The notes under the pieces: generated by a model
What the model was told of the DNA's origin: nothing
Databases searched by the model: none
What the model saw: the letters and a program-made list of their open reading frames with translations, nothing else
Program-made: the position numbers and the translations under genes
Source of the DNA: Chloroflexota bacterium
GTDB lineage: Bacteria; Chloroflexota; Dormibacteria; Dormibacterales; Dormibacteraceae
DNA length: 64,000 bases
Reading direction: 5' to 3'
Assembly (NCBI GenBank): GCA_005882135.1
Contig: VBDR01000030.1
Coordinates: 52,052 to 116,051, forward strand
Shown: positions 18,372-27,567 of the stretch, in pieces
Layout: every line of letters starts with the position of its first letter
Numbering within the stretch: the first letter of the stretch is position 1

Positions 18372-19862
18372 TTAAAGGAAGGCGAACGCCTCGTAGATCG
18401 GGCCGCGGTCGAACCAGTCGCCTGAGAACGCCACGTGCATCGCGTTCTGCTCCCACGGGTCGTTGGTCCAGTAGTCGGACGCGCCGTTCAACCCGGTCAG
18501 GGTCACGAAATGCGTGCCACCCGTTGGCAGGTTCATGCCCACGATCACCGGATGGCCGGCGCCGACCTGAGCCCTGATCCACGCCGGATCCGGACTACGC
18601 ATGACGACCGTCCTGTGTCCTGGAATGTTCAGGGCCGAGTTGAACATCGCGCCGCTGCCGTTGAACCAGCCCGGGTGAGCAGCGATCGTCGCCGGTGTGA
18701 TCGACGTGAACCCGAAGTGGGCGAACACCATCGCGAGGTCCGAGATCAGGCAGCCGATCTTCCACACCGGAAAGGTTGCGGCGCCCACATTCGCCGACGC
18801 CCATCGCGAGTCGCGCTGGTTGTAGTAAGCGCCCCAGCCATCGCTGATGGGTTGGGCGTCGAGGATCACCCGCTCGGTGCTGCCGCCACCGCTTCCGGCC
18901 CCTGCGAGCCCTCGCGCGATGTCCCACGACGGCCAGGTTTCAGAGGCGGCCAGCCGCGGGGCGCTGCCCCAGGCATGGACCTCGCCGTGCCGGTCGAGCA
19001 CCCAGCCGCCGGGCGACGCAGCCGAGGCCGCCGTCCAGGAGACCATCGAGTCGGCCATGTCCTGGCCCGGCCACCGCGCCGACGGCGTCACTGCCGGAGC
19101 GCCACCAAACGGATGGATGCCCCCCGAGTAGTCGAGCGTGTAACCCTGCATGAGCAGTCGGTGCCGCCCCGACGTGAGCACCAGCCCGCGGGCGACGTCG
19201 GTGGTCCAGCGAGCGTTGGCGGTCACGAAGGGCGCCCCGCCGAACGGGTGGATGCCGCCGAAACCATCGAGCGTGTAGCCCATGACACTGGCGGGTGTGC
19301 TGTTCGGCGTCAGCACGAGTCCTCGCGCGATGCCCTGGCCCGGCCAGAGCGAGTTGCCCGTCACCTGCGGCGCACCACCGAACGCATGGATACCGCCGTC
19401 AGCGTCGAGAAGGTAGCCCGCGGGCGCCCTATGAGACGACCAGGGCGCCAGCACGATCTCGCGCGCGCCGATCCAGTGCGGCCAGTACACGCCGCTTTCC
19501 ATGGTGGGTGCGCCGCCAACCGGATGCAGGCCGCCCCATCCATCCATGACGTATCCGCCGGTGCCATCCGGGAAGAGCGCGAGGCTGTAAGCGATGTCCT
19601 TGGTCGGCCACGACGCGGTCGACGCCAGGGCCGGCGACGCGCCGACCGGGTGGATGCCGCCCCATCCATCGAGCACATAGAGATGGTTCCGATTGTCGAT
19701 CGGCGGATGCACGTGCGCGGCTCCGTGGCCGATTGCGCCCAGGGTCACTTCGTCCCGTCCAGCGCTGGCCGTGCCGAGCAAGGCAGCGATGACTGAGAAG
19801 CCGAGGACGTAAGGCAGAAATCTCCGGGCACGCACCCCCACGGCGCCGGGATCGTAGTCCAT
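18372..19862 (-). CDS. Secreted six-repeat protein with C-terminal C39-like cysteine peptidase domain
   Basis: A 496-residue protein with an N-terminal hydrophobic signal or anchor (LPYVLGFSVIAALLGTASA). Residues about 55-335 contain six imperfect repeats of about 45-50 residues built on Y(V/T)LDGxGGIHPFGGAP, likely blades of a propeller-like domain. Residues about 345-496 resemble peptidase C39-like domains: YYNQRDSRWASANVG, then a candidate nucleophile in KIGCLISDLAMVFAHFG, His in GGTHFVTLTG and Asn/Asp in YWTNDPW. Probably extracellular. The substrate is unknown, and the repeat family is one I cannot name with certainty. Confidence 0.75.
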   Translation of the reverse strand: MDYDPGAVGVRARRFLPYVLGFSVIAALLGTASAGRDEVTLGAIGHGAAHVHPPIDNRNHLYVLDGWGGIHPVGASPALASTASWPTKDIAYSLALFPDGTGGYVMDGWGGLHPVGGAPTMESGVYWPHWIGAREIVLAPWSSHRAPAGYLLDADGGIHAFGGAPQVTGNSLWPGQGIARGLVLTPNSTPASVMGYTLDGFGGIHPFGGAPFVTANARWTTDVARGLVLTSGRHRLLMQGYTLDYSGGIHPFGGAPAVTPSARWPGQDMADSMVSWTAASAASPGGWVLDRHGEVHAWGSAPRLAASETWPSWDIARGLAGAGSGGGSTERVILDAQPISDGWGAYYNQRDSRWASANVGAATFPVWKIGCLISDLAMVFAHFGFTSITPATIAAHPGWFNGSGAMFNSALNIPGHRTVVMRSPDPAWIRAQVGAGHPVIVGMNLPTGGTHFVTLTGLNGASDYWTNDPWEQNAMHVAFSGDWFDRGPIYEAFAFL

Positions 19863-26259: not shown

Positions 26260-26283
26260 AGCCCGCCACCTAGGCGGGCTTTG
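26260..26283 (+). terminator. Terminator-like hairpin in the leader of the secreted protein gene
   Basis: AGCCCGCC/GGCGGGCT with loop ACCTA, followed by only TT. It is upstream of, and in the same direction as, the gene at 26320, so it could attenuate that gene. It does not end any plus-strand gene nearby. Confidence 0.5.
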
Positions 26284-26319
26284 CCGTCAGAAGGGGTTTT
26301 GAAGAGGGTTCGTTTTCGC

Positions 26320-27567
26320 ATGTCTCGGACGCGTCGCGTCTCAGTCGCGGCTTTCGCAGCCGCAATTTGCGCCCTGGTTTTCACGTCGCTAGGCGCCGCC
26401 GCCGACTCGCCAAATCAGGTCGCCGATTCAGACCTGCAGCCGACGTCGACAAAGTTCGGCCACCCGCAAACGCCGCACGCCGAGGCGCGCACCATCCAGC
26501 ACTGGGCGGGCGAGACGACGAACCCGGTGGACGGCGCGACCTACAGCTACAGCATGGTCGGAGCCAATCCCGCCACCGTGAGCGCCGCGACCATCGATGT
26601 GGACATCGTCCCGATTAACGTGACAGTCGCCGGTACGGCCTTCAACGGCTCCGACGTCGTGCCGACCGTCCTTGCTTCACCCCTCTTTCAGAAAGGCGAC
26701 TACTCGTCTACGAGCGCGGCCAGCACCGCGACGGGGGGCAGAGGTGCGGGCGGCGAGCTTTCCGCCGGCAACGTCGACGTCCAGCTCCTGGACGCCACGA
26801 TGCGATCACAGTTCAACAAGATCGGCACCGGTTACCACCTCTTCCTGTCGGCCACCGTTCGCCGCCCGGTGACGATCGAGGTCCCCGCGGAATTCGGCGT
26901 CCTGATGACGAGCCGCGGCGGGACAACCTTCGCCGACATCGACCAAACGTGGTTTCAGCCGCAGGTGGAGGGCCTGACCGCGAGCCTTCATTACCTCCAG
27001 CCGCACCGCCTGGCCCTTTTCCTCACCAACGACGTGATGCTCTACGGCAACCACAACCCAATGGCCTGCTGCGTTTTCGGCGCGCACGGCACCACTGACA
27101 CGACCGCCGAAGGCAACGGCAGCGAGGGCCGGCAGGGCCTCCAGACCTTCGTCTGGGCTTCCTGGATAAAGGCAGGTACATTCAGCCCGACCAAGTCGTG
27201 GGCCAAGCAGGACATCAGCGGCCTGAGCCACGAGATCGCCGAGTGGGCCGCGGATCCATTCGCGAACAACACCGTCCAGCCCTGGTACTCGCCAGTAGCG
27301 ATGCAGTACGGGTGCAACAACATGCTCGAGATCGGGGATCCGCTCGTGGGGTTCGGGTTCACACAGGGCAGCAACAGCTTTGACCAGACCAACCCATACA
27401 CGGACGGCGCCTTTCACCCGCAGGACGAAGTTTTCCTGCCGTGGTTCATGCGGACTTCACCCAACGACGTCTCGCAGCCCACTCAAGGGGCTGCGACGGG
27501 CCGCTACACGTTCATGGGTAACCTCAACCGCGTCTCCGCCTTCCAACAGGCCGCCGGCGGCTGCTGA
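26320..27567 (+). CDS. Secreted protein with HEIAEW motif, possible metalloprotease-like
   Basis: A 415-residue exported protein. The signal peptide is MSRTRRVSVAAFAAAICALVFTSLGAAA. The mature part has a beta-rich N-terminal half, then CCVFGAHGTTDTT and LSHEIAEWAADPFANNTVQPW (about residues 308-328), where HExxxW recalls a zinc-site helix, followed by CNNMLEIGDPL. I cannot assign a known family firmly. The ATG at 26320 starts the signal peptide; the ORF-track TTG at 26281 lies in the upstream hairpin. It is followed by a terminator. Confidence 0.75.
   Translation: MSRTRRVSVAAFAAAICALVFTSLGAAADSPNQVADSDLQPTSTKFGHPQTPHAEARTIQHWAGETTNPVDGATYSYSMVGANPATVSAATIDVDIVPINVTVAGTAFNGSDVVPTVLASPLFQKGDYSSTSAASTATGGRGAGGELSAGNVDVQLLDATMRSQFNKIGTGYHLFLSATVRRPVTIEVPAEFGVLMTSRGGTTFADIDQTWFQPQVEGLTASLHYLQPHRLALFLTNDVMLYGNHNPMACCVFGAHGTTDTTAEGNGSEGRQGLQTFVWASWIKAGTFSPTKSWAKQDISGLSHEIAEWAADPFANNTVQPWYSPVAMQYGCNNMLEIGDPLVGFGFTQGSNSFDQTNPYTDGAFHPQDEVFLPWFMRTSPNDVSQPTQGAATGRYTFMGNLNRVSAFQQAAGGC

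Follow-up and report, generated by a model that had tools for sequence, protein, structure and literature searches.

A predicted WGG propeller joined to a C39_2-like peptidase domain in a probable cell-wall enzyme of Chloroflexota

Results

Gene, start codon and coding evidence

The window analyzed here is a stretch of 64,000 nucleotides from contig VBDR01000030.1 of a Chloroflexota bacterium (Dormibacteraceae), and its minus strand carries a reading frame of 496 codons (18372..19862) that is open throughout. The gene is real and under purifying selection, since comparison of the window gene with four orthologs gives a dN/dS of approximately 0.2 and the differences fall mostly at third codon positions of the minus-strand frame. 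An antisense open reading frame on the plus strand (18435..19796) was rejected because selection operates on the minus-strand frame. The product probably starts at the GTG at 19841, since each of the seven orthologous upstream regions that were compared has ATG or GTG at residue 8, and the ATG of residue 1 is unconserved among them. Upstream of the GTG, TACGATCC is invariant in 7/7 of these regions and lies at a fixed distance from the start, and it therefore resembles a promoter -10 box; TACGAT may be this box, in which case the transcript would be nearly leaderless. Read from its sequence by itself, the N-terminus is compatible with a signal peptide or a membrane anchor, which agrees with a preliminary description in which the protein was said to be exported.

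Table 1. Features of the locus, with positions in the window and residues numbered from the listed ORF
Feature	Position	Strand	Remarks
WGG-propeller/C39_2 protein	18375..19841	-	probable 489-aa product; GTG start is codon 8 of the listed ORF
TACGAT, possible promoter -10 box	19851..19856	-	9 nt before the start; TACGATCC invariant in 7/7; putative function
Predicted signal peptide or membrane anchor	19761..19841	-	MGVRARRFLPYVLGFSVIAALLGTASA; sequence reading; hydrophobic N-terminus also in orthologs
Predicted six-bladed WGG propeller	18885..19694	-	residues about 57-326; self-alignment, AF2, Foldseek
Blade motif 1, LDGWGGIHPVG	19641..19673	-	residues 64-74; self-alignment
Blade motif 2, MDGWGGLHPVG	19518..19550	-	residues 105-115; ORF sequence; strands in AF2 models
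Blade motif 3, LDADGGIHAFG	19377..19409	-	residues 152-162; self-alignment
Blade motif 4, LDGFGGIHPFG	19239..19271	-	residues 198-208; self-alignment
Blade motif 5, LDYSGGIHPFG	19104..19136	-	residues 243-253; self-alignment
Blade motif 6, LDRHGEVHAWG	18966..18998	-	residues 289-299; self-alignment
C39_2-like papain-fold domain	18375..18845	-	residues 340-496; Pfam PF13529, Foldseek 3erv
Gln349, predicted oxyanion-hole residue	18816..18818	-	YNQRD; invariant in relatives to 26% identity
Cys371, predicted nucleophile	18750..18752	-	IGCLISD; kept in all covering relatives; helix start in model
His451, predicted catalytic His	18510..18512	-	GGTHFV; invariant; strand start in model
Asp468, predicted third triad residue	18459..18461	-	TNDPW; invariant

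Orthologs and gene neighborhood

A search with the full-length protein returned long orthologs at 70-78% identity in 11 other genomes, ten of the same genus and one from a different family within the class; contig ends interrupt several of these orthologs. The window's own genome has a single copy, public records related to it are MAGs that bear the name Chloroflexi, and searches of plasmid and phage records with the window protein gave no match. Genes for DinB, M20, MFS, an F420-type protein, PEBP, cNMP/ParA, a HesB-like protein and GroEL are conserved neighbors, in subsets that partly vary, and the gene is vertically inherited. The window protein is 78% identical to its ortholog L021, as compared to 95% for the neighboring PEBP and 93% for GroEL. 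One ortholog (L026/L012:144-1358) is short by approximately two blades, leaving approximately four, which may reflect either assembly collapse or a shortened propeller. Elsewhere in the window, 26281-27567 on the plus strand encodes a protein that looks secreted, has a metallopeptidase-like HEIAEW motif and matches no Pfam family, and this gene is kept near several of the orthologous loci.

Repeat array and predicted propeller

The best 40-residue self-diagonal of the protein scores 130 at an offset of 45, as compared to 29 ± 6 with a maximum of 51 for 300 shuffles, and additional self-alignment peaks lie at offsets of 88-92, 134-137, 179-183 and 225. These peaks at multiples of approximately 45 out to 225 indicate six repeat copies, each an imperfect version of a unit of approximately 45 residues. 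The preliminary description had reported six WGGIHPFGGAP repeats; the number stands, but that exact string occurs in none of the copies, and the consensus is nearer to GY.LDG.GGIHPFGGAP....W...DIARGLVL. Six copies are also present in divergent homologs.

We modeled residues 52-331 with AF2 using five orthologs and three distant viral arrays. The resulting model has a pLDDT of 78.9, a pTM of 0.83 and 18 strands (6 x 3), and the strand order, read without inspection of the coordinates, corresponds to six three-stranded blades with the last strand closing the ring. Three of the five models are similarly confident (pLDDT 75-79) and two are poor (pLDDT 41). A Foldseek search of the PDB with this model returned mainly propellers, with a best E-value of 6.4e-4 and TM-scores of at most 0.50 among the listed hits. 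The structure prediction is thus consistent with the earlier impression that the repeats look like propeller blades. A full-length AF2 run with eight close sequences, which gave a pLDDT of 39 and no ring, was set aside for the propeller, the repeats-only run with viral arrays having given the confident model. No Pfam family, including NHL, WD40, Kelch, PQQ and RCC1, matched residues 1-330 at E <= 10, and sequence searches of the PDB with the repeat or C39 profiles returned nothing meaningful.

The C39_2 peptidase domain

Searched alone, the C-terminal domain matches PF13529 (Peptidase_C39_2) with 23.2 bits (E = 1.2e-4) over profile positions 5-143 of 143, against a gathering cut-off of 24 bits; PF13529 was not returned when the whole protein was searched against Pfam. 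In the poor full-length model (overall pLDDT 39), residues 371-450 mostly have values of 52-81, and residues 461-480, which include Asp468, have values of approximately 34. A Foldseek search with that model placed 3erv, a C39-like peptidase, first (E = 8.9e-3, probability 1.00), and other matches were staphopain, the ComA peptidase domain, AvrRpt2 and the Tse1/Tae1 amidase. The near-full profile match and the Foldseek result from this mixed-confidence model both point to a papain-like, C39-type fold, as had been proposed.

The order of Cys, His and Asn/Asp that the preliminary description read as that of C39 peptidases is confirmed by Cys371, His451 and Asp468, which together with Gln349 are retained by all relatives whose sequences span these positions. 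Phage relatives with an identity of only about 26% still have Gln, His and NDPW without exception; their Cys is misaligned by MAFFT and fits upon manual alignment (TCFSSSCAM versus GCLISDLAM). A joint two-domain alignment with partial viral sequences was misaligned and was left out. Many C39_2 enzymes have a GCGPTS pattern around the Cys, and the departure of CLISD from it is what speaks for a papain-fold domain that lacks catalytic activity and is limited to binding wall peptides, a reading made very improbable by the retention of Gln, Cys, His and Asp in every covering relative.

The preliminary description also set the protein against C39 domains in general, which it said usually process leader peptides beside ABC transporters. 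Adjacency to ABC transporters is a trait of PF03412, whereas PF13529 is common in secreted proteins. That premise does not apply here, as the domain is of the C39_2 branch and PF03412 (bacteriocin exporter peptidase) was not returned for it at E <= 10. The description was right that the protein stands alone: PEBP, an F420-type protein, MFS, M20 and DinB lie nearby, and there is no ABC exporter beside the gene. It is scarcely credible that the protein is a leader-peptide-cutting exporter peptidase now separated from its ABC transporter, as C39 exporter peptidases are cytoplasmic and the window protein looks exported; the Cys-His-Asp order, common to C39 peptidases, and the ComA peptidase domain among the Foldseek matches are the points in favor of such an origin.

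Relatives of the peptidase domain

Two further genera of the family have proteins in which this C39 domain (49-52% identity) lies C-terminal to a PcsB-like coiled coil (L015 and L018), with CC_PcsB matches of E = 1.3e-4 and 5.5e-5 that fall below the cut-off. In these two proteins (loci L113 and L114) the C39 domain unusually takes the place that a CHAP/NlpC enzyme has in the PcsB family. By-eye reading found no ftsEX beside the PcsB-C39 genes of L113, L114 and L115, where heme-biosynthesis and DUF3048-like genes lie; the gene at L115:4930-5594 has seemingly decayed by internal deletion, and an intact copy is present in the related genome (L114). Among phage relatives, L084 matches an endolysin PHROG (7.9e-54), and the mycobacteriophage endolysin domain N5 (Bxz2 gp11) has been matched to a C39-like peptidase of B. 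anthracis (PMC3314691, Table 1).

Proteins carrying WGG and DGG repeats

Strong WGG matches occur in 19 of the 301 genomes of the phylum that were searched, every one of them in the window's class. The partner domains are CHAP (L065, L066), GH18 (L067, L076), CAP (L073, L078), C39_2 (L019/L063, L081), an Rv2525c-like glycoside hydrolase (L013/L062), a PQQ-type propeller (L061) and, weakly and below the cut-off, M23 (L082); one array occurs in a viral-contig protein (L083) that has no domain besides it. The PQQ-type partner shows that the module is not confined to wall enzymes. One locus (L116, G044:C95:36000-55886) holds at least five WGG-array proteins within approximately 17 kb, with PQQ-type and CAP domains among their partners, which suggests local gene duplication.

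A sister repeat, DGGIFAFG (GYWLVASDGGIFAFGDAPFYGS), is abundant in one genome of the class. Its copy number is six in 7 of the 9 proteins counted, and it is carried by CAP, GH18, YkuD and Vgb-type proteins. On viral contigs, two to three DGG copies lie at the C-termini of proteins, GH25 and Amidase_2 endolysins among them. Eight endolysin-like proteins ending in two to three DGGIFAFG copies were noted (L130, L131, L132, L135, L136, L139, L141 and L145), five of them with GH25 or Amidase_2 by Pfam. If these repeats are propeller blades, two to three per endolysin chain would mean that the ring must form between chains. Six DGG-type repeats were also seen inside large phage proteins (L137:2998-3714 and L140:2719-3474, the former also with PG_binding_1), as if a propeller had been plugged into a tail protein. 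A beta-trefoil was considered for the three-repeat endolysin forms; we favor a propeller because six recurs as the copy number and because six copies lie inside L137 and L140.

Alignment of the WGG and DGG profiles with hhalign gave a probability of 59% (E = 9.2e-5), a moderate link between the two that is supported by their common partners and six-fold copy number. Because the link is moderate, the argument for wall binding from the DGG endolysins is indirect. Tentatively, and at slightly less than even odds, WGG and DGG repeats may be the two arms of a wall-binding propeller superfamily, as yet undescribed, common to Chloroflexota wall enzymes and phage endolysins, in which the endolysin rings, with two to three blades per chain, would form between subunits. 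The propeller module, its fusions to wall enzymes and its endolysin counterparts were found neither in Pfam, nor in NCBIfam (for the proteins scanned), nor in the open-licence papers searched. We know of no member of the WGG family that has been characterized, nor of an established ligand or substrate.

Discussion

Relatives of both halves of the protein occur in bacterial wall enzymes and in phage endolysins, and a cell-wall-cutting enzyme is therefore probable. We infer, with a probability of roughly 0.6, an exported and probably membrane-anchored peptidoglycan peptidase with a wall-binding propeller; its export, binding, activity and substrate are all part of that inference. The surface recognition proposed in the preliminary description can thereby probably be narrowed to cell-wall binding. 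Given that both halves point independently to the cell wall, the likeliest mechanism would be that the propeller binds the wall and that the C39_2 domain, outside the membrane, cleaves a peptide bond. The N-terminal segment would take the protein across the membrane, and the six three-stranded blades would form a closed propeller whose ligand would be the cell wall or a glycan attached to it. The papain-like C39_2 domain, held by a Gly/Ser linker, would cleave a wall-peptide bond, with Cys371, His451 and Asp468 in catalysis and Gln349 in the oxyanion hole.

An unlikely alternative is a secreted protease with protein substrates, either on its own cell's surface or in the soil, whose propeller would bind proteins or a non-wall glycan. 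In its favor, the papain fold is also that of true proteases, such as staphopain among the Foldseek matches, and WGG arrays are carried by PQQ-type proteins as well, for which no wall role is known; yet the partners of WGG and DGG repeats are mostly wall or chitin enzymes, and the phage relatives of the C39 domain belong to endolysin families.

If the protein is a wall peptidase, its likeliest role would be remodeling of the cell's own wall, given its vertical inheritance and conserved neighbors. The chance that the same enzyme is released against competitors, lysing neighboring bacteria whose foreign walls the propeller recognizes, is slim. The predicted export, an architecture like that of endolysins and bacteriolysins, and an evolution faster than that of PEBP and GroEL would suit such a role, but faster evolution is frequent in secreted proteins generally. 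Self-remodeling is favored by the conserved locus, by purifying selection and by the lack of an obvious adjacent immunity gene, and retention throughout the genus is likewise as expected for a housekeeping function.

C39_2 peptidases in secreted proteins are already known, and the domains by which autolysins and endolysins are known to bind the wall, such as LysM, SH3b, PG_binding_1 and choline-binding repeats, are small. The propeller is probably a previously uncatalogued kind of wall-gripping domain. If so, a propeller swapped among enzyme types and common to phages would represent a new class of wall-targeting module, would show one way of directing a cysteine peptidase to the wall, and would aid the annotation of unlabelled secreted proteins in little-studied soil Chloroflexota. 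The endolysins with two to three blades would then be natural fragment-assembled propellers, of a kind already made in the laboratory (PMC6805158).

As compared to the C39-like peptidases of PF13529 (e.g., PDB 3erv), the window domain has a near-full profile match, the same Gln, Cys, His and Asp, and its best Foldseek hit in common with them. It differs in scoring just under the curated cut-off, in a propeller fusion that is outside Pfam, and in having GCLISD at the Cys in place of the usual GCGPTS. PcsB-type hydrolases have a coiled coil and, in known PcsB, a CHAP enzyme domain; in the relatives from other genera, a PcsB-like coiled coil precedes this C39 domain, whereas the protein of the window's genus has a propeller in place of the coiled coil. 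Six-bladed propellers of the NHL and YWTD types resemble the predicted array in their closed ring and blades of approximately 42-45 residues, and propellers dominate the Foldseek list, but the array is without a Pfam or PDB sequence match and has three strands per modeled blade. The endolysin domain N5 of Bxz2 gp11 is likewise a C39-like cysteine peptidase domain within a wall-cutting enzyme, but it belongs to a phage lysis enzyme for which a six-blade propeller is not described (PMC3314691). Finally, the receptor-binding propeller of phage phi11, which has a putative GlcNAc-binding cavity (PMC6115969), is also used on the bacterial surface, a likeness by description of the fold and not by sequence comparison, and has five blades in a phage tail as compared to the six predicted here.
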